Source: Bacteroidota bacterium
Lineage (GTDB): Bacteria; Bacteroidota; Bacteroidia; Bacteroidales; F082
NCBI GenBank assembly: GCA_024279935.1
Contig: JAJRQZ010000049.1
Coordinates: 1 to 39,002, forward strand
Direction: 5' to 3'
Length of the DNA: 39,002 nt
In this document: positions 8,911-29,014 of the stretch, piece after piece
Layout: each line of letters opens with the position of its first letter
Position numbering within the stretch: position 1 is the stretch's first letter
The notes under the pieces: generated by a model
Told to the model about the DNA's origin: nothing
Seen by the model: the letters and a program-made list of their open reading frames with translations, nothing else
The model's database searches: none
Made by a program: the position numbers and the translations under genes

Positions 8911-9197
8911 AATTTCATAAGTTACATGAGCTTACAATTTAACGGTTTTAGCAACAGCTTTGTTAAAGTCGCCTAATTTATAAGGAATCCAAATAATTTA
9001 AGCTGCAAGCCCGGCCCGGGAATGACAACGAAATCCGTTAGTCGCTAATTCGCTTTGCTCATTTGTAGTTTGAGGTGGGCTTAAAAACTACCTGGATCAA
9101 GATGTATAGAAACCGCCCCTAAGTTTTTGGCACCGGTTTAAGGAAAAATGATAAATTAGCAAAAAATACCTGCTCGTCAACATTGGGGGGAATAAAA

Positions 9198-11456
9198 ATG
9201 AGAAAAGTTTATATCATGCTTGTCGGCCTTGTCCTGCTTCTGTTGTCCCAATGCCGAACACCCAAAACCAAAATTGCCCGGGCCGATTTTACGGGCAGTC
9301 GAGCATGTGCTGAATGTCATGGGAAGGAATATGCCGAATGGCAAGGCTCGGATCACGATAATGCTATGGACACTGCCATTGCCTCAACGGTTTTGGGCGA
9401 TTTTAACAATGCCGGATTTGAGCGCAATGGCTTTGTCAGCAGTTTTTTTACCAAGGACGGGAAATATTTTGTTCATACAAAAGGTCCCCGCGGCAAGGCA
9501 GGCGACTTTCAAATTGCTTATACATTTGGCGTCAGGCCATTGCAGCAATATCTGATTCCTTTCGAAAATGGCAGAATGCAATGTTTGCCCATAGCCTGGG
9601 ATACGGAAAGAAAAACATGGTTCCATCTTGCCGATTCTGTATATAAAGGACAGGAGATAAATCCGAACGACTGGCTCTACTGGACAAATAACGGCCAAAA
9701 CTGGAACGGCATGTGCGCCGAATGCCACTCGACCAACCTTCGTAAGGATTATAATCCCGTAACCCACGTTTTCAATACTAAATGGTCGGAGATTGACGTA
9801 GCATGCGAAGCCTGTCACGGCCCTGCGTCGGAGCATAACAAATGGGCCGCAGACAAGGACAGGTCCATCGCCAACTACGGACTGCTTGTCCAAACCTCCA
9901 ACATTAATTCAGAAACACTCATCAATCAGTGTGCTTATTGCCATTCGCGGCGCACCTCCTTTGGCGATTTCGTTCACCCACGTGAGGACTTATTCGATAT
10001 AATAAGTCCCCAACTCCCTGTTGAACCTTTTTATTACCCCGACGGACAAATACTTGAAGAAGATTATGTATATTCTTCTTTTTCTCAGAGCAAAATGCAC
10101 CAAAACAATGTAAGATGCACAAATTGTCATAACCCGCATAGCTTAAAATTAAGACACGAAGGAAATAATCTTTGTTACCAATGCCATAAACAGGAAAAAT
10201 ATGGAAATCATGAGCATCATTATCATAAATCGTTCAATGAGGAAGGAGAAGGTTTAATACTTGATAATGGCAAAAAAACCATAAAGGCCGGGGAGGGCTC
10301 ATTATGTGTAAACTGCCACATGCCGGGCAGGTTTTTCATGGGCGTTGACTTTAGGCGCGACCATAGCATGCGCATCCCGCGCCCCGATTTGAGCGACAGG
10401 CTGCAAACCCCCAACGCATGTACGCAATGCCATAGCGACAGGAGTAACGAATGGGCTGCCGGCTTTACTGCCAAATGGTATGCTAAGCCCAATCGGTTTC
10501 ATTTTGGCGAAACGATGTATTTAGCTGCCGGAAACGATACCTCTGCCTTGAAAGGATTGTATAAAATCCTAGATGACGAAAACTCTTCGGCAATTATTAA
10601 AGCCGCTGCAACTTATTATCTAGGTGCTTTTCAGAGCGAAGAAAACTATTTGAAAAACAAAGAGTTACTAAAAAGCGAACACCCTGTTGTCAGAAGAGAA
10701 GCCGTGAAAAACTTCATTCCCAAAAGCAAAAGCGACCTTAAAACTTCCATAATTCCGCTTTTAAGCGATTCGACACTTATGGTTAGAAACGAAGCCGTGT
10801 CGAAGCTTTCAGTCTTGAAACAGTCTGATTTCGACAGTATTGCGTATAGAAAGTTCAGCAACTCGGTTGGTGAATACATCCGTTCAATGGAGTATTCGTC
10901 CGATTTTGCAAGCAGCAGGCACAATTTAGGCAATCTATATTCTAATCTTGGGCAAAACCAAAAAGCAATAAAACAATATAAAGAGGCAATCGAAATCGAT
11001 GATTTGTTCTTTCCGTCGAAAATGAACCTTGCCATGCTCTATAACCGAGAGGGCAAGAACGAAAAAGCCGAAAAGCTGTTTATCGAGCTAACGAAGCAAA
11101 ACCCTGAAATGGGGCAGGCATTTTATTCATTGGGCTTGTTGCAAGGCGAAATGCAGAAATACGATGAAGCAATAGTGAATTTGTATCAAGCGGCAAAACT
11201 ATTGCCCGGGCAAAACAGGGTGAAGCTTAATTTATTTAAACTGCTCTCATTTAAAAAGCGAGGCAAGGAAGCCTCAAAGATTATTGATGAATGTATATCG
11301 CTGGAGCCTTCGAATATTGAATATCTATATGCAAAAATAGAGCTGCTTATACAGCAAGACAATATGCGGGAAGCAAAAAACATTGCCCGTAAAATCCTAA
11401 AAACAAACCCCGAGACAAGAGATAAAAATCAATTATTGCAATTCATAAATTCGTAA
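9198..11456 (+). CDS. Octahaem c-type cytochrome lipoprotein with HEAT and TPR repeats
   Basis: About 752 residues. The ATG at 9198 is preceded by GGGGGG at good distance; a TTG at 9183 is in frame but less likely. Signal and lipobox LLSQC at ~15-19 give a lipoprotein. Eight CxxCH haem sites begin at residues 37, 173, 203, 245, 307, 326, 370 and 408. After residue ~430 there is a HEAT-like helical stretch, then about four TPR units (~570-750). This is the cytochrome c554/doubled-CxxCH type fused to TPRs found in Bacteroidota and Planctomycetota, an electron carrier on the outside of the inner membrane or in the outer membrane. The electron donor and acceptor cannot be read from the sequence; no oxidoreductase gene is adjacent. 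Confidence 0.9.
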   Translation: MRKVYIMLVGLVLLLLSQCRTPKTKIARADFTGSRACAECHGKEYAEWQGSDHDNAMDTAIASTVLGDFNNAGFERNGFVSSFFTKDGKYFVHTKGPRGKAGDFQIAYTFGVRPLQQYLIPFENGRMQCLPIAWDTERKTWFHLADSVYKGQEINPNDWLYWTNNGQNWNGMCAECHSTNLRKDYNPVTHVFNTKWSEIDVACEACHGPASEHNKWAADKDRSIANYGLLVQTSNINSETLINQCAYCHSRRTSFGDFVHPREDLFDIISPQLPVEPFYYPDGQILEEDYVYSSFSQSKMHQNNVRCTNCHNPHSLKLRHEGNNLCYQCHKQEKYGNHEHHYHKSFNEEGEGLILDNGKKTIKAGEGSLCVNCHMPGRFFMGVDFRRDHSMRIPRPDLSDRLQTPNACTQCHSDRSNEWAAGFTAKWYAKPNRFHFGETMYLAAGNDTSALKGLYKILDDENSSAIIKAAATYYLGAFQSEENYLKNKELLKSEHPVVRREAVKNFIPKSKSDLKTSIIPLLSDSTLMVRNEAVSKLSVLKQSDFDSIAYRKFSNSVGEYIRSMEYSSDFASSRHNLGNLYSNLGQNQKAIKQYKEAIEIDDLFFPSKMNLAMLYNREGKNEKAEKLFIELTKQNPEMGQAFYSLGLLQGEMQKYDEAIVNLYQAAKLLPGQNRVKLNLFKLLSFKKRGKEASKIIDECISLEPSNIEYLYAKIELLIQQDNMREAKNIARKILKTNPETRDKNQLLQFINS

Positions 11457-12409: not shown

Positions 12410-14200
12410 ATGAGAGTATTAATATTCATTTTATTGATTACTGCCTCCTTGGCAGTCATGGGGCAAGTAGGAATATTGACCGATACTCCGCATGCTTCGT
12501 CGGCATTGGAAATTTATTCCACCAACAAAGGATTGTTGATTCCGCGGCTAACCTTGACCAGTAATTTGAACAGTCCCAGTCCGGTGAGCTCCCCTGCAAC
12601 AGGCTTGTTGATATTTAATTCAGGGGCAAATCAAGCATTGGGTTTTTATTATTGGAACGGATCCATGTGGGTCTCGACTTCCTATTCTACAAATAATTGG
12701 TCTATTACCGGGAATAGCGGGACATCAGTTACCAACAACTTTCTCGGCACTACCGACAACCAGCATCTGGCTATTAAAACAAATAACGCGGAGCGAATCC
12801 GTTTTGAGTCGGACGGTCAGGTAATTATTGGCGCCACTACTCCCAATGCCAGCGAGGATTTGTTCACGGTTCAGGCCAACGCCACTCAGAACTATGCGAT
12901 TAACGCATATTCGCCAAGTGGTTACGGGGTTTATGCAAGTGCTGGCATTATTGGTTTTTACGCTGCTGTAAACAATGATAACGGTTTTCCCTTATGGGCC
13001 AAAAATGAAGGCGCCAATGGTTATGGGGCCATGTTAATAGGAAGCAACTCAGGGGCTTACACCCTGCAAAACCATACTGCGGCATTATCGGCGAATGGTA
13101 AGGACGGGATTTTCAGCCTTGGCCAGGCCTCTGATGGTATGGGTATTATCGCAGGGGGGAACAATGTTGGCACGCTATCGACCATAAGCGTTGGGGCAGG
13201 CGGAGCCTTTACGGGATATCACGGGGTTTACGGAAAAGGCGTAAACAGTTCTTCGGGAGTTGGTGTCATCGGCGTGGGCAACAACGGCTCTTCATACACT
13301 ACCAATTCCGATGGCAGCGGGGGAGCCTTTACGGGATATCACGGGGTTTTTGCAAACTCTACCAACCTTATTTATGGTACCGGATGCATAGGCGTAGGAA
13401 ATGCGGGCATATATTATTTGTTCGACGACGGTAACGGACATCAGGGTAGCGGAGGTGCGTTCACCGGGAAATATGTAGGTATGGCAGCATGGGCAACCCA
13501 GGCAAACAACAGCTCCATAGGGGTTTATGGTCGTTATAACGGCAGCGGGAGCTATGATGGCACGGGAGTTTATGGAATAGCCATTACATCAAACAGCAAC
13601 AGGGGTTATGGCGTTTATGGAGAGGGGAACAGATATGGTATTTACGCCAATGGCGACATGGGGGCGAGCGGCAGCAAATCGTTTGCCATTGACCATCCGT
13701 TGGATCCCGAAAACAAAATCCTGAAACATTATAGCGTTGAATCACCGGAGGTGTTGAATATGTACCGCGGAAACATAATCCTCGACCGGGATGGCGAAGC
13801 ATGGGTGAGCCTGCCGGATTATTTTAATGAAATAAACATCAATTTCTCGTACCAGCTAACAGCCGTGGGCATGGCGGCACCGGGAATATTTGTCGAAAAT
13901 GAAATAAATGAAAAAGGGGAATTCAAAATAGCGGGCGGAAATGCCGGTCAAAAAATTTCGTGGACGGTCTTTGCCGACCGGAATGACCCTTATATGAGAA
14001 TTAATAGGGAAAAAGAAGTTGATGTACTTGAAAAACCTGATAACGAAAAAGGAAAGTATATCGCTCCAAAGCTTTACGGCCAACCTGAGAGCAAGGGTGT
14101 TTTCTTCCGTGCCGACAATGGGCTGGAGAAAAAGCCTGTCCAGCACGAAGCAAGGGATATCAAGATCAAGCTAAACAAGAATATTGATGAACGCAAATAG
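12410..14200 (+). CDS. Exported tail-fibre/adhesin-like protein
   Basis: 596 residues with a signal peptide (to about VMGQ, 19). The N-terminal part has the Bacteroidota surface-fibre opening 'SSALEIYSTNKGLLIPRL' and 'GFYYWNGSMWV'. The middle (~160-410) is Gly/Asn-rich short repeats ('GGAFTGYHGVYG', 'GVGVIGVGNNG', 'GYGVYGEGNRYGIYANG') likely to form a beta-helix or trimeric fibre. The C-terminal ~170 residues carry a widespread module: 'SVESPEVLNMYRGNI', 'AWVSLPDYF', 'FSYQLTAVG', 'GKYIAPKLYG'. There is no T9SS sorting domain. The coding end overlaps the next gene by 17 bases, so the two are probably co-translated. It is a likely outer fibre or adhesin of the locus. Confidence 0.8.
   Translation: MRVLIFILLITASLAVMGQVGILTDTPHASSALEIYSTNKGLLIPRLTLTSNLNSPSPVSSPATGLLIFNSGANQALGFYYWNGSMWVSTSYSTNNWSITGNSGTSVTNNFLGTTDNQHLAIKTNNAERIRFESDGQVIIGATTPNASEDLFTVQANATQNYAINAYSPSGYGVYASAGIIGFYAAVNNDNGFPLWAKNEGANGYGAMLIGSNSGAYTLQNHTAALSANGKDGIFSLGQASDGMGIIAGGNNVGTLSTISVGAGGAFTGYHGVYGKGVNSSSGVGVIGVGNNGSSYTTNSDGSGGAFTGYHGVFANSTNLIYGTGCIGVGNAGIYYLFDDGNGHQGSGGAFTGKYVGMAAWATQANNSSIGVYGRYNGSGSYDGTGVYGIAITSNSNRGYGVYGEGNRYGIYANGDMGASGSKSFAIDHPLDPENKILKHYSVESPEVLNMYRGNIILDRDGEAWVSLPDYFNEININFSYQLTAVGMAAPGIFVENEINEKGEFKIAGGNAGQKISWTVFADRNDPYMRINREKEVDVLEKPDNEKGKYIAPKLYGQPESKGVFFRADNGLEKKPVQHEARDIKIKLNKNIDERK
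13202..13349 (+). repeat. Direct 28-bp repeat inside the fibre gene
   Basis: The 28 bases at 13202-13229 recur identically at 13322-13349, exactly 120 bp apart, encoding GGAFTGYHGV both times. A third, diverged copy (GGAFTGKYVG) starts at about 13453. The identical third positions point to recent duplication or gene conversion of a 40-residue unit. Confidence 0.8.
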
Positions 14201-15797
14201 GTATATGTTTAATAGTCAGTCAAATAGAATTAACAGAACAATTGATTCCCACACAAATGGAAAGCTTGTCGGAAAGTATTTGCATAAATACTATTTTACG
14301 AAGATATTAGTGGTGATCAACTTGGTATTTGCTTTATTCACCTGCAACATTTGCGCCCAGTTAAGTATTTTGCCCAATGCCAGTATCACTATCAAGACTT
14401 CGGGCAGCCTGTACGCAAATACTGAACTGCATATATTCTCAAACTCATCAGGTTCCGGATACCTTGCCGATCAAACATCGGGAGGAAGCCTTAGCGTAAC
14501 ATCGAATATACTGGTAGAGAGATACATTTCATCTTCGGGATGGCATAATGTTTCTTCGCCCGTTGCCACCGCCGGCACATCCCTTTTCAGCTCAACGGAT
14601 TTGATATTTTATTATGATGAGACTAAAGTCCTCAATGATTGGAACTTCGGTTGGATATGGTATCCCAGCGGAAACTTTTCCTAATTTAAAGGATACGATA
14701 TTTATTATGAAACCGGTTCGCAAAACATTGACTATACGGCTTCCGGATCTTCGTCGCTGAATACCGGAGCCTATTCAATTGCAATAAGCAGGACAAATCC
14801 GGCAAATGGCGAAACGGAAAACCACAAAGGTTGGAACCTCGTCGGAAACCCTTATCCTTCACCTGTTGACTGGCTTGTGGAGTCGGGCTGGGACAAATCG
14901 GACATCAACGATGCCAAATATATATGGAACCCATCGGCTGACAATTATACTATTTTCCTCGGGGGGTCCAATCCGGTCGGGATAAATGGCGGAACTCAGT
15001 TCATCCCGTCTAATCAGGGGTTTTGGGTGCAGGCAACAACCAACGGGAATATTTCGGTCAATAATGCATGCCGCAAGGGGATAATGAATTCAACTCCCGA
15101 TTACTATAAAAACCAGGAAACCGACTATCCTTTTATAAGCTTAATATGCAGCGGCAATTCGCTTAGCGACGAAACAATAGTGAGGTTCATCGGGCAGGCA
15201 AGTCCCGAATTCGACCTAAACCTCGATGCAATAAAACTCTTCAGCTTTAGTGATAAGACCCCGCAGATCTCAAGCATGCTTGAGAAAACAGCCCTGGCGA
15301 TAAACGCTCTTGCCGAAATAACTGATAACCTTGAGATACCCTTGAGTTTTTATTGCCCGACAGAAGGAAATTTCTCCTTGAGCCTGGATAATAAAAGCAA
15401 TACGGCGGAGTTTAGGGACATTTATCTTTTCGACAGGTTATTGAAACAACTGACAAACCTGAAACAGGACAAAACTTATGAGTTCCGGTACCTGACATCA
15501 AATATCCGCTCTCGTTTCCTGCTTATCATAAATCCTTCAAGGGAGAAGTTGACCGCATTGGAAACTGGGGATAAGTTCAGGGTTTATGCCATAGGCAAAC
15601 GAATCTTCATCGACAAGCTTGATGGCAAGAAACAAGGCTGCAAACTGATGGTCAGTAATTTGGCGGGGCAGGTAATTTTTTGGGGCGAGTTCGCGTCAAG
15701 CAAGAAAAATCTCGTATTGAACGCAGATGCCGGAATATATATTTTCAGTATCGTAACAGACAAGGAAATATTTAGCAAAAAACTATATATCAATTAA
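14184..15797 (+). pseudogene. T9SS type A sorted surface protein, split by an in-frame TAA
   Basis: Signal segment near residues 38-58 ('ILVVINLVFALFTC...AQ'), then a large beta-rich exported domain with 'HKGWNLVGNPYPSPVDW' and 'QGFWVQA', typical of Bacteroidota T9SS cargo. It ends in a Por-secretion type A sorting domain (~465-537) with 'MVSNLAGQVIFWGEF', 'DAGIYIFSI' and final 'KKLYIN'. TAA at 14682-14684 interrupts it. Reading on in the same frame gives FKGYDIYYETG and the rest of the domain with no other lesion. As split ORFs, the second part has no start near the break and no signal. The start overlaps the fibre gene by 17 bases. If the stop is real, the product lacks the sorting domain and would stay in the periplasm. 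Confidence 0.75.
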
Positions 15798-15824: not shown

Positions 15825-16634
15825 ATGAAAACAATTGCAAAAATCTCTTGGGCATTGATGATTTTTCTAGGCTCGACAGTAGTGCTGAACGCACAGGAAT
15901 TAGAGGTAACACCGGCAACTTTGATGTTTAACACAAAACCGGGCTCATCACAAACAAAACAGGTTTATGTAAGAAACAAAGCAAAAACCGAGCAATCGTT
16001 CATTTTTAACCTTGCCGACTGGCTTTCGGACGAGGAGGGGGAGATAAAATATTTCGCCCCCGGTACTATTGGCCGTTCCTGCTCCGATTGGATTACCGTT
16101 TCGCCGGCCTTGGTAACGCTTCAGCCAAACGAGGCTGTAAGAATCAACATCACCATGCTTGTTCCCGAGGATAACCCTTCAACAAAATGGGCGGTGCTTT
16201 TCATAGAATCAGCAACCGAAAAAACCGGCGCCAACGCCATCGACAAGAACGTGCAAATGGGTCTGAAAATATCGGCCCGTATCGCAGTACCCATTTATCA
16301 GTCGCCTGACGCAAACACACTTTATAGGGGAAGCCTTGAAGGCCTTGACAATATCAAAGATAAGGACGGCAAGGAACTTTTCCAGACGAAAGTAATAAAC
16401 CTGGGCGATAAAATATTGAATTGCAAGGTGTTCTTCACCTTTTCGAATTTGGAGACCGCTGATGAATTTACTTCAAACCCTCTTGAGTTTTCCCTGCTCC
16501 CCGAATCGGACAAAAACATAAATTATACTCTTAAAGAGCCTCTGGCCAAAGGAAAATATTCCGTTGCCGCCATACTAGACTATGGATATAACGAGGAGCT
16601 CGAAGGTATTCAAACCGAAATTGAAATAAAATGA
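15825..16634 (+). CDS. PapD-like periplasmic chaperone
   Basis: 269 residues with a signal peptide cut near LNAQ (23). The first mature domain has the immunoglobulin-like pattern of pilus chaperones: 'LEVTPATLMFNTKPGSSQTK', 'VYVRNKAKTEQSF', 'DWITVSPALVTLQPNE', 'VRINITMLVP' and 'WAVLFIE'. A second beta domain follows (~165-269). Known role of the family is to hold fibre subunits in the periplasm before delivery to an outer-membrane usher. Context supports this: three small exported paralogues and a large usher-like barrel follow on the same strand. The stop overlaps the next start by 4 bases (ATGA). I cannot confirm the PapD active-site Arg/Lys pair without an alignment. Confidence 0.75.
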   Translation: MKTIAKISWALMIFLGSTVVLNAQELEVTPATLMFNTKPGSSQTKQVYVRNKAKTEQSFIFNLADWLSDEEGEIKYFAPGTIGRSCSDWITVSPALVTLQPNEAVRINITMLVPEDNPSTKWAVLFIESATEKTGANAIDKNVQMGLKISARIAVPIYQSPDANTLYRGSLEGLDNIKDKDGKELFQTKVINLGDKILNCKVFFTFSNLETADEFTSNPLEFSLLPESDKNINYTLKEPLAKGKYSVAAILDYGYNEELEGIQTEIEIK

Positions 16635-17818
16635 GGATGTTGAAACACATATTGTTTATCTTTTTTTCGCTCATGCTGAAAATGATTATCGCACAAAACG
16701 CTTTCGTTACCGACACATCGTATTTTTATAATGACGGCAAACACATAAAATCGATAATCGCTTATGAACTCATTTCCGGCGACAGCCTGAAAAGCGGTGA
16801 AGCGTATTTCTTTTACATAAGTGGCAATTTAATGCAGGAAGGAGCCTTTAAATCGGGTTGTATGTCTGGCCGCTGGACAACATTTTATCCCGATGGAACA
16901 TTGAAAAGAACATCTAGTTATGTTGATGGCATCAAGAATGGGGATGTAAAAAGTTATCATCAGAACGCTAAGCTGAAGTATATCGGGTTTTTTGAGAATG
17001 ATTCTTTGGAAGGTGAAATGACTCTTTTCTATGACAGCGGCATTATTAAAGAAATCCGTAACTATCATAAAAACAAGCTCAACGGTTTAACTACCGGATA
17101 CTTCCCCAATGGGAACAAAAATTATGAGATAATGTTCAGCGATAGTATAAAAAGCGGTAAGTACAAAAGATACTTTTCCTCCGGAAACATACAGGAAGAC
17201 GGCTTTATGAAAGGTGAATACTTTTATGGTGATTATAAAAGCTATTATGATAACGGGAATATTGAAAAGGCCTACTCATATAGCAATTTTGATATCGAAG
17301 GGCCATATCTGGTTTATCACGACAATGGCAGCTTGATGATAAGGGCAAATTATGAACAAGGCCGTTTACAAGGAGTTTACACTAAGTTCTACAAAAACGG
17401 CATCCCCTATGAATCAGGAAGTTATAAAGATGGCTTGCGAGAAGGCCTTTGGACTAGCTTCCACAACGACTCGACTGTTTATATGGAGGGCCGTTATTTG
17501 CATGGCGAGGCACAGGGCTATTGGTCGGTTTATTTCAAAAACGGGAACTTAAAGCAAAACGGGCTTTTCGACAAGGGCTTGTCGCAGGGCTTGTGGAAAT
17601 ATTACCATAAAAACGGCCAACTGAAAATAAAAGGTGTTTATGTTGACAACAAAGAGGATGGCCATTGGGTCCGTTTTTACGATAACGGAAAAGCAAAACT
17701 AGACCTTTATTATAAAATGGGACGGCTAAGCGGTTTGTTGACAGCCTATGACGAAGAGGGAAAAGTTTTGGAGCAAGCCGAATATGCCGATAATAAGCTA
17801 ATAAGAAAAATAAAGTAA
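16631..17818 (+). CDS. Exported MORN-variant (YwqK-like) repeat protein
   Basis: 395 residues; signal peptide at ~4-21 (cleavage near IIAQ). The remainder is about 14 tandem ~23-residue hairpin units of the form 'G-x-W-x-x-Y-x-x-N-G-x-L-K', for example 'GRWTTFYPDGTLKRTSSY', 'GVYTKFYKNGIPYESGSY' and 'GLWKYYHKNGQLKIKGVY'. This is the MORN_2 / YwqK family. Despite the 'antitoxin' label in databases, secreted versions are usually scaffolds. It overlaps the chaperone gene by 4 bases and abuts the first subunit gene with no gap (TAA then ATG), so it is made together with them. Role in fibre assembly is inference. Confidence 0.8.
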   Translation: MRMLKHILFIFFSLMLKMIIAQNAFVTDTSYFYNDGKHIKSIIAYELISGDSLKSGEAYFFYISGNLMQEGAFKSGCMSGRWTTFYPDGTLKRTSSYVDGIKNGDVKSYHQNAKLKYIGFFENDSLEGEMTLFYDSGIIKEIRNYHKNKLNGLTTGYFPNGNKNYEIMFSDSIKSGKYKRYFSSGNIQEDGFMKGEYFYGDYKSYYDNGNIEKAYSYSNFDIEGPYLVYHDNGSLMIRANYEQGRLQGVYTKFYKNGIPYESGSYKDGLREGLWTSFHNDSTVYMEGRYLHGEAQGYWSVYFKNGNLKQNGLFDKGLSQGLWKYYHKNGQLKIKGVYVDNKEDGHWVRFYDNGKAKLDLYYKMGRLSGLLTAYDEEGKVLEQAEYADNKLIRKIK

Positions 17819-18391
17819 ATGAGGATCCCTGCTTATATAATGTTTCTGCTCTTTTCCGCTTCGGCGGGAAGGCTTATGGCACAAGATATCCCGCCACCCA
17901 ACCCTTCTATGGTAATCAGTATAGTTGCAGGATATAGCGTTTCCTTTACGTTCGACCAAATGGACGAGTATAAGAACGGAATATTGAACGGCGGTCAACA
18001 GACATTTATAAGGATAGGGGCTGTTAACGACTGGAAGCTGCAATTCAAGGCAGATCAGAACATTTTTTACGGTGATAACAACCCGGCGAATCAAATGGAA
18101 CTAAATAATGTAGGTTTGGTGGTGCTGTCAACGGGAACAAACCAGGACGACGGAAGCAATATTATAAACTACGCAAAACTTGAACCTTTGGCACTTTCGG
18201 GCAGCAACCAAACGCTCATGACCAAGGGTGCCGGCTCCAACAGGGGCTACGAAAACAGGAATTCTTTTACCTTAAACTGGGAAATGGGCACAAAAAGGGG
18301 GAACATGAACAACCAAAGTATATTGGAGCAGATGATAGAAGCTGATACTTATACTGTTAGCATCATTTTAACTTTGTCTCCGGCAAATTAG
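17819..18391 (+). CDS. Exported subunit paralogue A of the fibre locus
   Basis: 190 residues with a signal peptide (cleavage near LMAQ, 22). The all-beta mature part has the landmarks shared with 18693 and 19407: 'DEYKNGI', a 'NDWKLQFKAD' strand, 'NNVGL', 'NSFTLNWEMGT' and a last strand 'TYTVSIILTLS'. No Cys. The start directly follows the MORN gene stop. I read it as a minor subunit or adaptor, being expressed from the upstream operon rather than from the promoter before subunit B. No characterised family is recognised with certainty; the fold resembles DUF4402/coat-protein-U-like fimbrial subunits. Confidence 0.7.
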   Translation: MRIPAYIMFLLFSASAGRLMAQDIPPPNPSMVISIVAGYSVSFTFDQMDEYKNGILNGGQQTFIRIGAVNDWKLQFKADQNIFYGDNNPANQMELNNVGLVVLSTGTNQDDGSNIINYAKLEPLALSGSNQTLMTKGAGSNRGYENRNSFTLNWEMGTKRGNMNNQSILEQMIEADTYTVSIILTLSPAN

Positions 18392-18692
18392 CGATGAAGG
18401 CTTGAGCAGAAAAAAAACAGACAAAAACTTGCGTGCATAAGTATATTTTTTGTATATTGCATCCTCGTTTAAAGCAGGCATTAAAACAAAACGGCATTAA
18501 TTTTTTTGTTATTGAATCAGTCCACTAATATAAAGGGATTATTATGTTGATATACGAAATGGCATTTGACAGTTCTTAAATTAACAAACAAAAGCATTTC
18601 CCGCAAAGGGGGGATGAAAAACAGATAAACGGTGAAAGAAGCAAGACATATTTATAAACCAATATTTTTCTAACATTTTAAAACACTTTATT
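18392..18692 (+). promoter_or_regulatory. Promoter and long leader of subunit B
   Basis: 301 bases without a gene between subunits A and B. TTG at 18429-18431, 21 bases, then TATATTG at 18453-18459 fits the Bacteroidota promoter. The flank CAAAAACTTGC matches the one at 11472. The resulting leader is ~225 bases, AT-rich, with a GGGGGG at ~18607. No riboswitch family is recognised. Such a leader suggests separate, strong control of subunit B. Confidence 0.5.
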
Positions 18693-19289
18693 ATGAAAAA
18701 ATTCATTATTGTTTTGATGGTGCTGGCAATGGCACAAGCAACAGGCATGAAGGCTCAGACAACTGACACCGATGTTGTTAACTTCACGGCTATTCTACAG
18801 GAAGTTCTAAATTTGAACGTAACTGGCGGGCAGAACCAGACTGCCGACTTCGACACTCCGGACGAGTACAACCTTGGAATTGATGCTGTTGGGACAACCA
18901 CTATCACAGTTGAATCAACAGGTGATTGGGATTTACAAATTAATGCTGCAGACTTCAGCGACGGAGGTGGAAATATCATTCCCATCGATAATTTAGGACT
19001 ATGGTGCGAAGCCACCGGCGTTCATCAAATCGGAACTGAAGTAAGCTGCAGTTACACATCATTGGCAAATGCATTGGGAATAACCGCGACCGATCAGATG
19101 TTATTGGACAACCTTGGCGGTAACGGCGGCGATGCAAGTGATAACGCGTTTAATTTAAACTGGACCATGGGAACCATGAACGGATCCATGAGTACGGCAA
19201 GTATTTTCCAGCAGGTTTCCGACGGGACAATCGGGGCGCTCGGAACTTATACGACAACAGTAAATTTAACACTTACTGCAAAGCCATAG
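18693..19289 (+). CDS. Exported subunit paralogue B, probable major subunit
   Basis: 198 residues; signal peptide cut near MKAQ (22). The mature N-terminus 'TTDTDVVNFTAILQEVLNLNV' has alternating hydrophobic residues, as expected for a strand given to a neighbour, though this is inference. Landmarks shared with A and C: 'DEYNLGI', 'VESTGDWDLQINA', 'IPIDNLGL', 'NAFNLNWTMGT' and 'TYTTTVNLTLT'. Two Cys (CEATGVHQIGTEVSC) could form a disulfide. It has its own promoter and leader and is closed by a hairpin terminator at 19318, so it is set for a higher level than its neighbours, the pattern of a major structural subunit. Confidence 0.75.
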   Translation: MKKFIIVLMVLAMAQATGMKAQTTDTDVVNFTAILQEVLNLNVTGGQNQTADFDTPDEYNLGIDAVGTTTITVESTGDWDLQINAADFSDGGGNIIPIDNLGLWCEATGVHQIGTEVSCSYTSLANALGITATDQMLLDNLGGNGGDASDNAFNLNWTMGTMNGSMSTASIFQQVSDGTIGALGTYTTTVNLTLTAKP

Positions 19290-19317
19290 GGTTTTGTTTT
19301 CATTTACATTAATGCCT

Positions 19318-19390
19318 GGTCGGCAGTAATTTGTCGCTTTTCCCCGGTTCAGGACTATATCGGGAATCAGTTTTACTGCCGGCCTTTTTT
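19318..19390 (+). terminator. Terminator/attenuator between subunits B and C
   Basis: GGTCGGCAGTAA (19318-19329) pairs with TTACTGCCGGCC (19373-19384), 12 bp with one G-U, followed directly by six T. The loop contains a second small stem (TCCCCG / CGGGAA). Read-through would feed subunit C and the usher-like gene at a lower level. Confidence 0.7.
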
Positions 19391-19406
19391 CAACAAACAA
19401 TATTAA

Positions 19407-20018
19407 GTGAAAATAAAAAAAACAATCGGTAACCTACTGGTATTTGCCGTTTTCCTCAATTTCAATTTGGCAAATGCACAGGGCGAAATAATGGAAACCC
19501 ATGTTGCCGCCACTCTCGAATCAGTATTGATACTGAATATCAATCCCGGTGTAAACGTTGAGTTCGGAATAATCGAGGTCTCGGAAAACCTATACCAAAT
19601 AACGCATAAGCCCGATGATATCCACTTCAGCGTCGAATCGACAGGGAACTGGGATCTGAGTGTCTCGGCAAGCGATAATTACTTCAGCTGCGTTGATGAC
19701 AGCTCATGTAAAATCCCCATCGACTTTGTTGGATATCAAATAGAAAACGAAGGAACCAATTGGGACAACGGCCTTTTTTCGCATATAGCTAACCGTACAA
19801 AAGACACAACTCTTTCATTGTCAACCAAAAAGACAACGGTCTTGGTAAACGGGAATAAAAACAATATAGGTGGGAAAGAGCAAAATGCCTTTGTTCTTAG
19901 GTGGAAACTGAATTTTGAAGATGACTTATTAAAGATAGATAAATTTTATAAATACAAAATAAAGGAGGGATATTATAGAGCAGATTTTTACATCACCTTA
20001 ACCGAGGACAATAGATAA
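19407..20018 (+). CDS. Exported subunit paralogue C
   Basis: 203 residues from a GTG start placed 17 bases after the terminator T-run. Signal peptide cut near ANAQ (25). Shared landmarks: 'ATLESVLILNINPG', 'FSVESTGNWDLSVSAS', 'IPIDFVGY', 'NAFVLRWKLNF' and 'YYRADFYITLT'. Two close Cys (CVDDSSC). It is the most diverged of the three, with a basic insertion near the C-terminus (KIDKFYKYKIKEG). It lies 44 bases before the usher-like gene, so a tip or anchoring subunit that contacts the barrel is plausible but unproven. Confidence 0.7.
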   Translation: MKIKKTIGNLLVFAVFLNFNLANAQGEIMETHVAATLESVLILNINPGVNVEFGIIEVSENLYQITHKPDDIHFSVESTGNWDLSVSASDNYFSCVDDSSCKIPIDFVGYQIENEGTNWDNGLFSHIANRTKDTTLSLSTKKTTVLVNGNKNNIGGKEQNAFVLRWKLNFEDDLLKIDKFYKYKIKEGYYRADFYITLTEDNR

Positions 20019-20062
20019 ATAGCCCGAAAAAAGCCTGGCAAAACGAAAACAAGACAAGGCAA

Positions 20063-23000
20063 ATGGCAGGTAAAATGAGCAACAAAATCTTCCCGCACAA
20101 TTCTTGTCGCGGGCTGGCAGTAGAGTTTCTATGGACTTTGTCCTTCATGCTCTTATATAGCTTTGCCGCTAATTCGCAGGCCCTGCGAATTAGCTTCGTT
20201 AAAACAAATATAAATCAGGATGCCGGAAGCCTGATCTTTAATATTGCGAGGATAAAAAATAATTCCGCCGAACAAATTAACTTGCAGCCCGTATTGAAAT
20301 TGCCCGGGAACTGGGCGTTTTTTAGTGGTTCGCTCAAGGCGATATCACTAAGGCCAGCTGACAGTATTTCCATTCCCTTAAGGATTAAAATCCCTGTCTC
20401 GGCAAGTTCCGAAATTAATTATACAATTGAGTTACAGTTGTTTACCGATGAAAATCAATTTTTGTCGAGGAGAACATTCACTGTAAGGACAAGGCCAGTT
20501 CACAATTGGGACGTGCAGGTGCCTCAAGAAAGGCTGTATTTTTTCCCGGGATCGGACAGGCTAAGCTTTGACCTAAAAATATTGAACAATGGAAATATCA
20601 GCGATACAATTGCGCTCGATATTCTTCCCGACAGGAAAATAAAATTAAAGACGCGCGATGAACTTGATCCGCCGGGCTTTGTCATCCTAAAACCACATAC
20701 CGACACTACCCTCCCCTTAACAGCTTTATACTCTTATGACGAAGAAAGGATATTTGAGCTAAGCAAAATCCAAATCTTCGCAAAAGCAAATAATAAAAGG
20801 ATTTACAGGGCTGTTATTATCGAAAAATACTCCGACAACTACGACCCTTTCGAGATAGACCTGACCTTGCCCCACCAAGTTGAGGCAGGTTTCAGGACTT
20901 TTAACAAAAACAGCGAGGTATTGCCGTTCGTTAAAACCAACGGCATAGCCAAACTTAGCGGGGAAAGCAATTTCAGGTATAATTTTACATACTATGATCT
21001 TACACAAACAGAGAACATTATAGCAAACTCTTATTATAATCTTCTTTATTCCAATAATGATTTAAAAATTGGCCTGGGTGCGTTTAGTTCCATGCTTGGG
21101 CGAAACCTATACAACAGGAACAGCATTATGGTCGCCCATAAAATCCGCATTAGCAAAACCGGAAGCCTGGAAGGTTTTGCAAGTTATGGCTTCGTAGATC
21201 CCAAGGCCGGAGGTGCAATTGGCTATATTTATGAAAAAAACGACCTGAACATGAAGGCTTCCGTAGCCTACGATGCCGATGGGCTGAGGAAGATAAATAC
21301 TGCCTCCTTCATTTATCACTCAAATAAGATCAAACTGGCAAAAAACCACGATATGAGTGCTGTTTTATATGCCTATAACGAAAACCATTATCTAACCAAT
21401 AAATATTCGCTTAGCGGAATTGCATGGGACATAAACTATTATGGTCGTTTGTCGAAGAACATTGTTTTGCAGTTCAGCAATAATTACGGAAGCCCGAATA
21501 TGCCCGGGCCACAAATGGGGCTTTTGAACTTCAAAACAAAGCTTAATCTTGCCACTTCCGACAAAAAGAAATTCTTTACCTTCAAATACGTTAACACAAA
21601 CAAGAACTTTTATTATATGAGCTATGAGGGCAATAAGCTTCCCGGCTCACTCCTTCACGATCAGTTTGGCAGCATTTTTTATCATTCGTATTCGAGCAAG
21701 GTCCATCGGTGGTCGGCCGGGCCGAGTATGGAATATTATAAATCCTTAAAGCCCATTTCCAATTCGGATGAAAAAGCAGTTTATAGTGTCAGCAAGTATC
21801 GTATTGAATATCATTCGTTTATAGGGCGTAAGCTAACGCTGGGCATTAAAGCCGGCATGGGGGATATTTATTATAAGGAAAGCGAGGAAACAAAAGAACT
21901 GCGTTACGATTTCCATCTTTTGGGCGATTTGAACCTGGGCGGTTACGGCTTGCGCTTTGCCTACGATTATGGCCCCATGGTAAATACAGGAATCTATCAG
22001 TTCGCCATCGACGCTTCCAACAACAGCGCGAACATTTCGCCTTATGCAATAAAACAAATCTTGAAGGGAAGAGTTAACCTTACCCTTTTTGCCAATTTCG
22101 CCTATCGCTTCGACCTAAGATACGGATCCATAAACATAAACCCGAAAATCGAGGCCTATGTTTATAAGGATTGGTATATAGTAGCGGGCGGGACATATTC
22201 TTACCTAAACCAGGAATATAAGGGAAGTAAGATAGATGCAAGTTATTATTATACAGAGTTGTCCGTCAAGAAGAAGTGGGGGGAAACCGATTATAAGAAA
22301 TGGCAAAAAGATTTAAGGAGGATGAAAATCGTTTTCTTCAGGGATAATAACGGCAATGGGAAAAAGGATAATCTTGAGCAAGGAATCCCTTATGTCAAAG
22401 CAAGATTGCTGCTTGTGAATTCGGCCGACCAAAATAGGAAAAACGAATTCCCAATTGACCTCACATTGCTTTCGAACGACAAGGGAAGCGTGATCTTCAG
22501 CCGCATCCCAATGGGGTTTTACGAGCTGAGCATCACGCCATTGCAGGATCAAAAAGAGTATTTCTATATTAATAAAACAGCCCAAACCATTGAGGTTACA
22601 AAAACCGACGTGCTTTATGTCCCGTTTCAGAAAGCCTCCAAGATCGAAGGCAAAATTGAGCTGAGCCAACGCAAATACGTGCTTGAAAATCAAAAAATCA
22701 GGGATATGGCCAACATAAAAGTTACGGCCTTCAACAACGAAGGCAACACTTATTCGGCTTTTACAAGGAAGGATGGCAGCTTTGTGCTTTTTGCTCCAGG
22801 CAACAATGTTTACTTCTTGAGGATCTCAAATGTTTTCGGAAAGGATTTCAGGATATTGAAAAATGATCTGAAAATAGAATTGCCCAACCCTGAGCTTGTT
22901 GTTTTTAGAGTTGTTGAAAACAATAGAAAGATAAAGTTCAAGCAGGCAAAACCTAAAGGCAAAGAGGAAGGCAACACTAAAAAGCTAAAGATTTTACCGG

Positions 23001-23338
23001 GCAGGATTTATAAAAACGAGCAAGAGAGACTCGACGAGCAAAGCCCTCTGCCCCGGTTTAATATAAAGAACAAAGCTGCTATGGAAGAGGTTGTCATAAA
23101 GGATAGGTTTTATGTTGTCTTATCGAGAACCGCCGATTTCAACCTGGCCAGCGACATAGTAAAGCTCATGAAGGAAAATGGTGTGCTTTGCCGTATCGGC
23201 TCCGGCCAGGGCAGCGACGAATTAATAGTTTTCACGAATTACTATTCCACTAAGGATGAAGCGAAAGCTGAAGTTAAAAGGTTAAAAACCACTGGAATTA
23301 AAAGGGTCTATATCCTCAGGGCAGGGAAAAATCAGTAA
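20063..23338 (+). CDS. Usher-like outer-membrane beta-barrel with C-terminal SPOR-like domain
   Basis: 1091 residues. The start is ATG at 20063 or, equally possible, ATG at 20075; the signal peptide follows (LSFMLLYSFAANSQ). Residues ~40-260 look like two immunoglobulin-like domains. Residues ~280-745 are amphipathic beta strands rich in Tyr/Phe/Asn ('YNFTYYDLTQ', 'SNNDLKIGLGAFSS', 'FRFDYGPMV'-like segments), a probable large barrel. At ~757 'FRDNNGNGKKDNLEQG' begins a SdrD_B/CNA_B-like domain, then another carboxypeptidase-regulatory-like domain (~850-910), a Lys-rich linker, and a ~80-residue C-terminal domain (~1010-1091, 'RFYVVLSRTADFNLAS ... VYILRAG') like SPOR peptidoglycan-binding domains. 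Barrel size, the chaperone and subunits upstream and the Ig/plug-like domains suggest an usher role. It is not a classical PapC-family usher by motif. Confidence 0.7.
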   Translation: MAGKMSNKIFPHNSCRGLAVEFLWTLSFMLLYSFAANSQALRISFVKTNINQDAGSLIFNIARIKNNSAEQINLQPVLKLPGNWAFFSGSLKAISLRPADSISIPLRIKIPVSASSEINYTIELQLFTDENQFLSRRTFTVRTRPVHNWDVQVPQERLYFFPGSDRLSFDLKILNNGNISDTIALDILPDRKIKLKTRDELDPPGFVILKPHTDTTLPLTALYSYDEERIFELSKIQIFAKANNKRIYRAVIIEKYSDNYDPFEIDLTLPHQVEAGFRTFNKNSEVLPFVKTNGIAKLSGESNFRYNFTYYDLTQTENIIANSYYNLLYSNNDLKIGLGAFSSMLGRNLYNRNSIMVAHKIRISKTGSLEGFASYGFVDPKAGGAIGYIYEKNDLNMKASVAYDADGLRKINTASFIYHSNKIKLAKNHDMSAVLYAYNENHYLTNKYSLSGIAWDINYYGRLSKNIVLQFSNNYGSPNMPGPQMGLLNFKTKLNLATSDKKKFFTFKYVNTNKNFYYMSYEGNKLPGSLLHDQFGSIFYHSYSSKVHRWSAGPSMEYYKSLKPISNSDEKAVYSVSKYRIEYHSFIGRKLTLGIKAGMGDIYYKESEETKELRYDFHLLGDLNLGGYGLRFAYDYGPMVNTGIYQFAIDASNNSANISPYAIKQILKGRVNLTLFANFAYRFDLRYGSININPKIEAYVYKDWYIVAGGTYSYLNQEYKGSKIDASYYYTELSVKKKWGETDYKKWQKDLRRMKIVFFRDNNGNGKKDNLEQGIPYVKARLLLVNSADQNRKNEFPIDLTLLSNDKGSVIFSRIPMGFYELSITPLQDQKEYFYINKTAQTIEVTKTDVLYVPFQKASKIEGKIELSQRKYVLENQKIRDMANIKVTAFNNEGNTYSAFTRKDGSFVLFAPGNNVYFLRISNVFGKDFRILKNDLKIELPNPELVVFRVVENNRKIKFKQAKPKGKEEGNTKKLKILPGRIYKNEQERLDEQSPLPRFNIKNKAAMEEVVIKDRFYVVLSRTADFNLASDIVKLMKENGVLCRIGSGQGSDELIVFTNYYSTKDEAKAEVKRLKTTGIKRVYILRAGKNQ

Positions 23339-25511: not shown

Positions 25512-28500
25512 TCATTTCAGCACAGTTACCGAACCTTCCAAAACTTTATCCTTGTCGAGCATGGATGTGTATTTTATGGTATAAACATAGGTTCCGGTTG
25601 GGACAAATCCGCCATTATACCTTCCGTCCCACTGATCCTCGATATTATTCGACTCAAATATCAATTCGCCCCAGCGCGAGAAAACCTGAAGGTTGTAGGC
25701 CTTTAGACCGATACCCTTGATCTCGAAGAAATCATTCATCCCATCTCCGTTGGGGGAAAAGGCGTTAGGCGCATAGACAACAAAATCGGGATGGATGGTA
25801 AGCTCCTTCTCCATGCTGCTCTCACAGCCGTTGGCGGTAACAATGTCAAGGGTGATCGTATAAATCCCTGCTTGCGTATAAATATGTGTAGGCGAGGCTG
25901 TTGTAGAGGTTTGGCTGTCGCCGAAGGTCCAAATATAACTAAGGGCGCCGCCGCTAATGGAAGTATTGCTGAAGTCGATGGTTGCTTTATCATCCTCAAG
26001 TATAGATTCCGGCGGGACAAGGTCGAAATCGGCAACAGGAGTCTCGTTAACATCTATAAAAGCATTTACCGTTTTGCTATCGGAGCATAGGCCGTTATTG
26101 GTGATTTCCAGTTTTACATCATACTGTCCGGGAGTGGTATAGGTTGTTGAAACGGATTCGGTCGTGCCACCGCTTCCATTACCGAGATCCCAGTTATATG
26201 TTACGTTATCGGTAGTATTGCCCGAAGTGCTGTTAAAAACTACGTCCAGGGGGGCGCAACCGGAAATGCTATCGGAAATAAAATCGGCAACAGGGCTTCT
26301 GACAACCTCCAGTTCGAGGCTGAACGCTTCGGCACTACAGCCATCTTCTTCAACTAAAAGACTAAGGGTTTTCGTTCCTTCCAAATCCCATTGTATATCA
26401 TAGGGCCCTTGTCCGGAACCGGAGTTGATGCTTGCACCGTCGAAATCCCAGCTGTAATTTGCCGCCGTACCGGCATTTCCCGAATAGTTCACTATCATGG
26501 CCTCGTTCTCGCAAACCAGATCAGATTGCAAGGCAAATGTTGAGAACAATTCCGGTTTAACCGTGATAGTTTGCTCAAGGGTTGCAGGACAATTGAATCC
26601 GGCAACATTGCCTACTAAAGTATAAGTAGTTGTTTCAAGGGGCGTAACATTGATGACGGCATTTGTTTCCTGTCCGGTCAAGCTGGCATCCGGAGGATTG
26701 GCAGTCCAAGTTAGATCTGTTGCCGTCCCAACAGCCGTTATGCTTACTGTTTCGCCATAGCAGGCAAAATCATCGGGAACATCCAGGGAAATATCAGGTA
26801 CCGGATCAACCTGAAGGATCATATCATCGGTATTTACGCAGCCATTTGCATCGGTAACCTGCACCGAATAGGTATAATTTGTTTGCTGGTCGGGTGTTAC
26901 CAAAGGGTTATATATCGAATCCTGTCCGCTTAAACTAGGGTCAAGGGGAGCCGATGTCCAGACATAATCCGTTCCGCCGCCAGCCTCAAGATTAAATGAA
27001 TCGCCAAAGCATATCGAGTTATCGAGGCCTGCGCTGGCATTAGGGAGAGGATTGACCGTGATTGATATATCAGTGCTTGCCGTAAAATTGCAGGCATTGG
27101 TAACGGTTACGCTATAAGTTGTTGTGGTTGTTGGCGTTACATTTATTACCTGATTGTTTTCCTGACCGCTGAGCGAAGGATCAAGTGGTGAGGATGACCA
27201 CACATAAGTTTCGTCGGTAGCACCCTGGTTAATAGTAAGCTGACTAAGGTCGCCTATGCAAATAACATTTGTGTCGGCTATTGCAAAGGCAGAAGCCCCT
27301 TCGAGCAAGGCCATGGTGGTATCGGTATCGAGATGAGTACAGTTATCACTTACTTCCAGCACATATTCCGTTGTGCCCGGAGGGCTAACCACAGGATCCG
27401 GGATTGTTTCCTGCCCTGCCAATGAGGAATCTACCGGGTTTGATGTCCAGAAAAATGCCTGTGCCCCTTCCGAAGATCCCTCAAGCTGAACGCTGGTAAC
27501 GTTGCACAAATCTTTGTCGGGGCCTGCGTTTGAATAAATTGGTGTGGCAATAATGATTGCAGTGTCCAGTACCTGACGTCCGCATGTGTCGCTTACGATA
27601 CAATAAACCTCGGCACTGTCGGTCCCTGAAATTGCGAAGTCGTACGTCTGGGTTAGGAAGCTCCCCGGCAACCATTCATAAGAATAAGGCGGGATCCCCG
27701 TTAAATACTGGTCCCCGAAACTAAGTGTTATCGTATCTTCGCAATATGTTTCATATCTTCTTGTAGTATCCCCGAAATAAGGTTTGTCGAGTATCAACAC
27801 AAAAGCGGTATCCGTCAGTAAGGGGTTGCACATCTCGGCACGGTAAATAACCTGGATGTCCTCCTGACCTTCTGTAATAAAATCTTCGTAAAAATTATAA
27901 AAAATTATGGAATCCCTTGTGGAACCACTGGGGAAAAACAAGGTGTCCTCGAGATTGACTATCTTTTGGTAATCATCGCCAAGAGTGGCGCTTCCCTCAA
28001 TTTTATATGGGATATAATAATCGAAGCCCATTTGTGTAGATAGATTAAAAACCATATTGACATCATGGTTGTTGCATGCTTCGTAAACGAGGCTGTCGAT
28101 GGTAGGATGGGTATATTCCGGTAAAGCGTCCACTGTTCCCAGGTTGAAGCTTCCTTTTTCGAGGAAGACACCTGTATCGAAAACCCCGTCCCCAGCATCG
28201 CCGACCTTCAATCTTATAGTGTACCATTGACATTGGGAAACCCCACTTTTTGCTGGAAGCGAAGTAGTATAACCATCATAAACAAAGTTTTTGAAGTTGG
28301 GGTCATCGCTTTGACTGTTGTCCTTGAAATACTGGCAATTGGTGCAGCCGCTTGGCTTGCCAGTACAAGTTTGCCCGCCTTTTCCAAAATTTATATTGTC
28401 AATTGCGACCGGAGTATGTGTTCCGGGTATTTCAGCTATATTTTTGGAGTTTAGGCTGAAGGGACCATTAATACCAGGCCCTGAAAGAAAGAAGCCAAAA

Positions 28501-29014
28501 ACATCATTAAAACTGGCAAAAACATAATCATGATATTCTTCGGAAGCGAAAACATATTGGAATGTTGCACTATCGGCGGTGGGCTTAAATTGAAATTCGA
28601 TAATACGAACATCATGAGTAGCCGTTCCGTTTCCCAATTGATTGAGGTCGGCATCATTTCAACGCCATTATTGTTTGTGCTGGCATTAGCCGCGCTTCCA
28701 CAAACATTTTCCTTATCAACATCGTCGGATTTACCGGAAGTCATAATAATTCCCTGGCCTTTTGTAAAACCAAGGAAATATCCGTTTTTGAAATATCCCA
28801 CGGAACTTGGATCGCCGTAAAACTTTATGTTCTGTTTAGCATACACAGGAACGCTTTTCAAAAAAACAGTATCAATTAAAGCGACGACAGCGGCACTGTC
28901 GGCACAGGGATAAACAGTGAAATCGCCAAATCCCTGGGCATTGGCTTTTTCTACATTGGAAAACGAAAAAAATACGGTTAATAAAAGAACTGAAAATTGT
29001 AGTTTTAGTTTCAT
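25512..29014 (-). pseudogene. Giant surface protein: choice-of-anchor L, PKD repeats, T9SS type B domain; -1 frameshift
   Basis: Start MKLKLQFSVLL at 29014; signal peptide cut near ANAQ. The N-terminal domain (~30-270) matches choice-of-anchor L proteins: 'GIIMTSG', 'NGTATHDVRIIEFQF', 'FQYVFASEEYHDYV'. A long series of Ig-like repeats follows, with recurring 'DPSLSGQE', 'NVTPTTTTTYSVTV' and 'GLDNSICFGDSFNLEAGGG'-type units, then PKD domains ('YIWTFGDSQTSTTASPTHIY'). The end is the gliding-motility C-terminal type B sorting domain: 'APNAFSPNGDGMNDFF', 'WGELIFES', 'QWDGRYNGG', 'PTGTYVY'. The frame breaks at 28659-28657, where GTTGAAATGATGCC lacks one A; adding it restores 'VENDADLNQLGNGT' across the family's conserved region. 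The corrected product is ~1167 residues. Confidence 0.85.

Follow-up and report, generated by a model that had tools for sequence, protein, structure and literature searches.

The closest described counterparts of the locus analysed here include the chaperone-usher pili, the pond-water fibrils TLP-1a and TLP-1b, and the type V fimbriae of Bacteroidia. The classical usher is a 24-strand barrel with a plug domain. The TLP structures (9IKJ and 9IKK; TLP presumably stands for Tsinghua Lotus Pond) presumably belong to the CryoSeek study, in which Wang and colleagues (reportedly in PNAS, 2024) are said to have found that protomers n and n+4 exchange donor strands, and to have proposed that the fibrils are uncharacterised bacterial pili. 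According to a 2026 review, the filaments that the CryoSeek studies obtained from pond water could not be identified conclusively (PMC12967142). Type V fimbriae are thought to use a donor strand, and the 2018 paper that gives this view states that no chaperone or usher genes had been described for Porphyromonas gingivalis (PMC5789003). Fibre assembly in Bacteroidota is little understood. A 39,002-nucleotide contig (JAJRQZ010000049.1, hereafter the window) of the 3.73-Mb draft genome of a member of this phylum carries a run of six genes that probably encodes a fibre (pilus) assembly system working like the chaperone-usher pathway. The features of this run are as follows.

15825-16634, + strand: PapD-related periplasmic chaperone of 269 amino acids with two immunoglobulin (Ig)-like domains (PapD_N matches below cut-off; hhalign comparison with controls)
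16631-17818, + strand: exported MORN-repeat protein of 395 amino acids (Pfam MORN_2, seven stretches; constant neighbour of the chaperone)
17819-18391, + strand: subunit 1, pilin-like, without an N-terminal strand, proposed tip subunit (14/14 rows start D-x-PPPNP)
18693-19289, + strand: subunit 2, proposed major pilin, relative of TLP-1a and TLP-1b (profile, AlphaFold2 model and fold searches)
19318-19390, + strand: terminator-like hairpin of 12 pairs followed by six T, proposed attenuator (folding of the gap; place kept in related operons)
19407-20018, + strand: subunit 3, pilin-like with an N-terminal strand, proposed minor or base subunit (loci of relatives and alignments)
20063-23338, + strand: large outer-membrane barrel of 1091 amino acids, proposed usher-like conduit (AlphaFold2 model, fold searches and family alignments)

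The initial annotation, made from the letters of the window, had described this run as a chaperone, an exported MORN-repeat protein, three paralogous small exported subunits and a barrel. The list of open reading frames (ORFs) with their translations has all six genes at these places on the + strand. The tight packing also proved correct, with a 4-bp overlap between the chaperone and MORN ORFs and a gap of zero between MORN and subunit 1, and the N-terminal export signals of the window proteins can be seen by eye. The MORN_2 repeats were confirmed (Pfam E-value: 1e-37), and this is the only one of the six proteins to exceed any Pfam or NCBIfam cut-off. The paralogy of the three subunits is borne out by reciprocal phmmer matches in most relatives and by a full-length alignment.

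Conservation of the gene set

The barrel query matches 29 of the 100 relatives whose genomes were searched. The chaperone is present in 26 of these 29 genomes and in one of the 71 without a barrel, and a subunit is present in 27 and in none, respectively; the statistics on this co-occurrence assume independent genomes, an assumption that does not hold. Exceptions among the barrel matches are G002, G035 and G076, where the barrel lies at a contig end or on a contig of less than 7 kb, and G045, where the match is limited to a C-terminal part of the barrel that contains one stop. The single genome with a chaperone and no barrel (G021) has a partial chaperone match (E-value: 2e-12). Carriers and non-carriers both occur in six genera.

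Twenty neighbourhoods were examined, 15 from the window's own family and five from other families of the same order. The order in the own family is type IX secretion system (T9SS) cargo gene, chaperone, MORN, subunits 1, 2 and 3, barrel. The first three of these genes adjoin, with the cargo gene directly before the chaperone, in all 13 own-family loci long enough to include them, and MORN adjoins the chaperone in L049 and L051 as well. In the other families, all five loci encode a subunit and a second small exported protein upstream of the barrel; at two of them the chaperone and MORN genes lie together on the opposite strand, and at the remaining three (G083, G077 and G069) the chaperone gene is found at another place in the genome. 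Subunits, chaperone and barrel also occur together in more distant neighbourhoods, where some genera encode as many as five small subunits in tandem; from their gene content, these are guessed to be Flavobacteriia. In L122 (4914-8461) and L124 (3808-6520), four or five almost identical small exported subunits are encoded in tandem ahead of the chaperone.

In a sample of 395 genomes of the phylum, the barrel profile matches 61, with near-whole-profile coverage at only 17 places in 12 genomes. These 17 full-length barrels, counted after short single-domain matches had been removed, all have a chaperone gene 32-3495 bases away, and eight of them were absent from the query alignments. An earlier barrel scan had matched 23 of the 395 genomes, of which 12 were judged true barrel holders; 10 of these 12 are full-length in the later scan, and in the other two (G443 and G341) a long ORF adjoining a chaperone matches the barrel weakly. 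Wide barrel scans exaggerate the reach of the barrel. The chaperone family is wider than the barrel, with matches in 86 of the 395 genomes; in many of these (for example in families f59 and f65) no barrel of this family was detected, and their chaperones may serve other systems. The recurrence of the gene set in order across the family and phylum is far beyond chance, and the expectation at annotation that the set would be kept in relatives held in both samples.

Chaperone and pilin-like subunits

The chaperone had been called PapD-like from the window sequence. A match to PapD_N was found in 12 of 16 family members at E-values of 0.1 or less, every one below the Pfam cut-off. An hhalign comparison of 40 members with seven E. 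coli chaperones gave a probability of 89.3% over 201 columns covering both domains, whereas 80 shuffled versions reached 9.5% at most and the reversed profile 0.2%. The five classical E. coli chaperones are the source of this signal (73.8% alone). EcpB/E alone gave 2.5%, and the true pair of classical chaperones and EcpB/E gives 1.3%. The profile comparison identifies the protein as a remote member of the PapD superfamily, as had been proposed.

Subunit 2 is most similar in structure to the TLP fibril proteins. Its AlphaFold2 model is of high confidence (predicted local distance difference test score, pLDDT: 91.7) and leaves mature residues 1-16 unpaired and without a strand. The VIA fold comparison places TLP-1a first and TLP-1b next (Z 10.3 and 10.0 over 159 and 167 residues), and Foldseek matches the model to TLP with an E-value of 1e-6. 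Of the other 48 VIA rows, 38 are chaperone-usher pilins or pilin domains (Z 5.8-7.0) and 10 are other beta proteins; 32 of the 38 pilin rows align only from residue 11 or later. Subunit 2 can be predicted confidently to be a pilin body of the chaperone-usher type with a free N-terminal strand, which supports a reading of the small exported beta subunits as pilin-like.

The sequence points in the same direction. A 46-row subunit profile finds 9IKK (E-value: 3e-8) and 9IKJ (E-value: 9e-8) over about 60 residues and no other solved chain below an E-value of 0.01; subunit 2 of the window alone matches TLP with an E-value of 0.023. (9IKK is named TLP-2 in the sequence file and TLP-1b in the fold library, and 9IKJ is TLP-1 and TLP-1a, respectively.) TLP-1a and TLP-1b were solved by cryo-electron microscopy, and the window subunit was compared with them through sequence and predicted fold. 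Sequence and whole-chain fold both place the proposed major subunit in the TLP-1 family.

Of 395 genomes from the class, 30 have a match to the 60-residue piece of TLP, with 69% identity in the best case. At all 12 loci examined of the 20 listed, the TLP gene, a gene for a small exported protein and a barrel of the window's family follow in this order. The chaperone is also encoded at 11 of the 12; in the remaining locus (L150) the contig stops shortly upstream of the TLP gene. As a separate observation, one TLP-type operon encodes a multi-domain FKBP-type isomerase right behind the barrel (L152 3285-4844, from Pfam), and ORFs similar to it by the start of their sequence are found in L150, L151 and L154. 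Beyond two papers citing CryoSeek, a search of an open-access library gave no description of TLP-1.

The three subunits differ at their N-termini. An N-terminal strand segment is found in 13/13 rows of subunit 2, 14/14 of subunit 3 and 5/5 distant rows, and is absent in 14/14 rows of subunit 1, which start D-x-PPPNP. From these alignments, subunit 1 would accept a strand and donate none. The gene for subunit 2 is duplicated in L085, L087 and L103.

The gap between the genes for subunits 2 and 3 folds with a minimum free energy of -30.3 kcal/mol (z -2.7). Among 14 operons of the family, a rule based on the window hairpin finds one of 12-14 pairs with a T tract at this place in 12, L034 and L039 being without one by the rule. 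As the rule was set after the window hairpin had been seen, the other 13 operons form the test, and 11 of them are positive. Two further such hairpins occur elsewhere in the scanned stretches of the 14 operons, and the density of such hairpins is 0.16 per kb against 0.048 in a first-order Markov resample. The stem sequences differ among groups. Such a hairpin also follows the TLP gene at 6/12 loci and stands between tandem pilin genes at 4/6 loci of the guessed Flavobacteriia. Consensus scans for promoters and terminators gave no excess over shuffles (17 vs 20.7 and 11 vs 9.9). The hairpin at 19318-19390, which has a long loop, is absent from their output; its assignment is based on folding and on the comparison of operons. 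An attenuator follows the major pilin gene in pap (a source for this was sought and not found); by analogy, the hairpin fits attenuation after the major pilin gene.

The outer-membrane barrel

The AlphaFold2 model of the barrel protein has a pLDDT of 81.9 (means of 68 to 82 across the five models) and a predicted template modelling score of 0.52. Two Ig-like domains at the N-terminus (residues ~40-256) are followed by the barrel proper (~271-739), with about 26 strands counted from the model's DSSP line, two beta-rich C-terminal domains, a linker of low confidence and, at the end (~1014-1087), a SPOR-like beta-alpha-beta-beta-alpha-beta unit. The SPOR match by sequence is weak (3/18 members, best E-value: 0.001). 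In three distant homologues an OmpA-type domain replaces the SPOR-like end; both are domain types that bind peptidoglycan. The Ig-like and SPOR-like domains that the initial annotation had read from the sequence are both in the model. The plug-like domain that it had also named is not, as the model has no domain inserted between barrel strands.

Fold searches gave a mixed result. FimD and PapC are among the first Foldseek rows (best usher E-value: 4e-9), mixed with Ig-repeat proteins. In VIA, MtrB (6R2Q) is the top row (Z 18.1, 428 residues, root mean square deviation [rmsd] 4.8), followed by TonB receptors and LptD (Z ~15-16); PapC has Z 14.5 over 443 residues (rmsd 11.8), and its row spans the barrel and the C-terminal domains (model residues 232-916). 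The model matches MtrB and TonB barrels no worse than PapC and FimD, so an usher identity is not established by fold.

Several results weigh against a pathway of the chaperone-usher type. The barrel has about 26 predicted strands, not the 24 of an usher, its model lacks a plug, and MtrB and TonB barrels match it no worse than ushers do. PF00577 (Usher) has no match at an E-value of 0.1 or less in 18 barrel members and exceeds its cut-off in 0/100 relatives (the E. coli control being positive), in agreement with the annotation's statement that no protein matches the PapC family. An hhalign comparison of the barrel with ushers gave a probability of 5.7%, although a control pair of known ushers itself gave only 17.5%. 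The first, narrower hhalign comparison of the chaperone had given 15.9%. In a MAFFT alignment, the window chaperone has T and P in place of R8 and K112, presumably the residues that hold the subunit C-terminus; R8 is found in 10/41 rows of the family and R8 with K112 in 5/41. The Z-scores of the pilin rows for subunit 2 are middling, and the tool warns that such rows may reflect a merely common arrangement. Lastly, the genomes of three distant barrels (G083, G077 and G069) have the chaperone elsewhere.

It is possible, though rather unlikely, that the barrel is a true and very diverged PapC-type usher, the locus being an extreme branch of the chaperone-usher family. The usher rows in Foldseek, the extent of the PapC row, the PapD relationship of the chaperone and a barrel-usher profile score of 35.6 (27.6 for the best of 80 shuffles) favour this. 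The low profile probability, the high rmsd of the PapC row, the strand number and the missing plug argue against it. The absent family match argues against a classical usher; the profile match is weak, and so is the method itself by its control pair.

An electron-transfer porin of the MtrB type is very improbable, even though MtrB is the top VIA row and a gene for a multihaem cytochrome c with TPR repeats lies upstream in the window (9183-11456). No Pfam MtrB match was found at an E-value of 0.1 or less in 18 barrel members, no cytochrome was recognised among the operon genes of relatives (judged by homology and sequence starts, with no haem-motif scan), and the constant partners of the barrel are a chaperone and pilins. 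More generally, sequence families and gene context disagree with a TonB receptor or MtrB identity, despite structural rows equal to or better than those of ushers.

The barrel might instead be an anchor or porin, with the subunits leaving the cell by another route (such as the T9SS) and the barrel holding the finished fibre through its SPOR or OmpA end. The lack of usher homology, the SPOR-like or OmpA end and the T9SS cargo gene in the own-family locus are consistent with this arrangement. It is nevertheless improbable, as the subunits have no T9SS tail in NCBIfam or Pfam, and in other families no gene like the window cargo gene was seen beside the chaperone while chaperone, pilins and barrel stay linked.

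Proposed pathway and known systems

The favoured reading remains a pathway with the logic of chaperone-usher assembly. The computations cover the gene set and how it is linked, the distant homology to PapD, the pilin-like fold, the homology to TLP-1 and the position of the hairpin, and the model proposed on this background runs as follows. Subunits would enter the periplasm via Sec, where the PapD-type chaperone would bind each pilin and keep it folded. They would then reach the large barrel, which its SPOR-like end would tie to the peptidoglycan. There the subunits would polymerise, each donating its free N-terminal strand to a neighbour, and the growing chain would pass through the barrel. 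Lacking a donor strand, subunit 1 would start the fibre as its tip, subunit 2 would be the shaft protein and subunit 3 a minor or base subunit. The hairpin would lower expression of the genes behind subunit 2, and the fibre would resemble TLP-1 fibrils. Roles in the system may also fall to the MORN and T9SS cargo proteins. Of the chaperone/subunits/usher logic in the initial annotation, the PapD-related chaperone, the pilin-like subunits and the conserved gene set have found support; the plug has not. Its check against usher structures was ambiguous, with FimD and PapC listed, MtrB above them and TonB receptors level.

The genes upstream of the chaperone had been suggested as surface partners, for which the constant place of the cargo gene beside the own-family chaperone offers some support. 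The two nearest are as follows.

12410-14200, + strand: fibre-like exported protein of 596 amino acids, conserved upstream in much of the own family (homologue at 10/15 own-family loci)
14184-15797, + strand: T9SS cargo gene whose frame is broken in the window by a single in-frame stop (Por_Secre_tail, above its NCBIfam cut-off, E-value: 5e-7)

The fibre-like protein has no Pfam match; its homologues lie upstream at L036-L041 and L043-L046, and some other loci are too short. The cargo frame is broken in three genomes of one genus, by an in-frame TAA in the window, an in-frame TGA in G004 and a frame change in G003, and is open in G001. All three breaks lie within about 20 residues of one place (the genes being at 14184-15797 in the window, 117-1625 in L033 and in the first 1.4 kb of the reverse strand of L178), and they may reflect chance, sequencing error or something regulated.

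Other genes were noted in passing. Kinase and response-regulator genes lie between subunits 1 and 2 at 6/14 loci (L035-L038, L041 and L042); the pair in L036 (5120-7630), the one of these analysed with Pfam, consists of a histidine kinase with a PAS domain and a response regulator of the LuxR type. Response-regulator genes are also found near L118 (confirmed by Pfam), L122, L124 and L127. Downstream in the window, a kinase/pyrophosphorylase gene (PF03618; 23472-24283) is split across two overlapping frames, and 25512-28637 encodes a large protein that combines PKD repeats with a type IX secretion domain (CHU_C).

A search of an open-access library for chaperone-usher systems in Bacteroidota listed no paper on this system. 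Chances are about even that it is a distinct pilus pathway spread across Bacteroidota, which combines a chaperone of the PapD family with a peptidoglycan-tied barrel of non-usher descent (about 26 strands and no plug) and also assembles TLP-1-type environmental fibrils. If so, the chaperone-usher logic would exist with two outer-membrane gates unrelated to each other, which raises the question of how often this logic arose, and the picture of fibre assembly in the phylum would change.

The locus shares with the chaperone-usher pili (Fim, Pap, CFA/I and Csu) a PapD-superfamily chaperone, N-extended pilin-like subunits, clustered genes and a large outer-membrane barrel. It differs in the barrel, which has no Usher match or plug, more strands and a SPOR- or OmpA-type end, in the missing R8 and K112 of the window chaperone, and in the two constant genes, MORN and T9SS cargo, that its own family adds. 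WxL-interacting proteins resemble the chaperone: WxLIP_PGBD matches 15/16 chaperone members at an E-value of 0.1 or less, and the chaperone profile aligns weakly with most of the EfmWxLIP1 chain (E-value: 0.039). These proteins, however, belong to the Gram-positive cell surface, with no outer membrane and no known pilin partners. The MtrB porin of the Mtr complex is like the barrel in structure and unlike it in sequence family and partners. Type V fimbriae (FimA, Mfa1) are likewise fibres of Bacteroidota, but no fimbrillin family was found in a Pfam scan of 46 subunits (E-value of 0.1 or less) and no lipobox cysteine was seen by eye in the three window subunits. The likeness to TLP-1a and TLP-1b extends to sequence profile, whole-chain fold (Z 10) and the chaperone-barrel operon of the TLP homologues, although the TLP chains have 236-237 residues, mature subunit 2 has 176, and identity is about 20%. 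TLP-1 thereby gains a genomic address, and its makers and assembly become directly testable.

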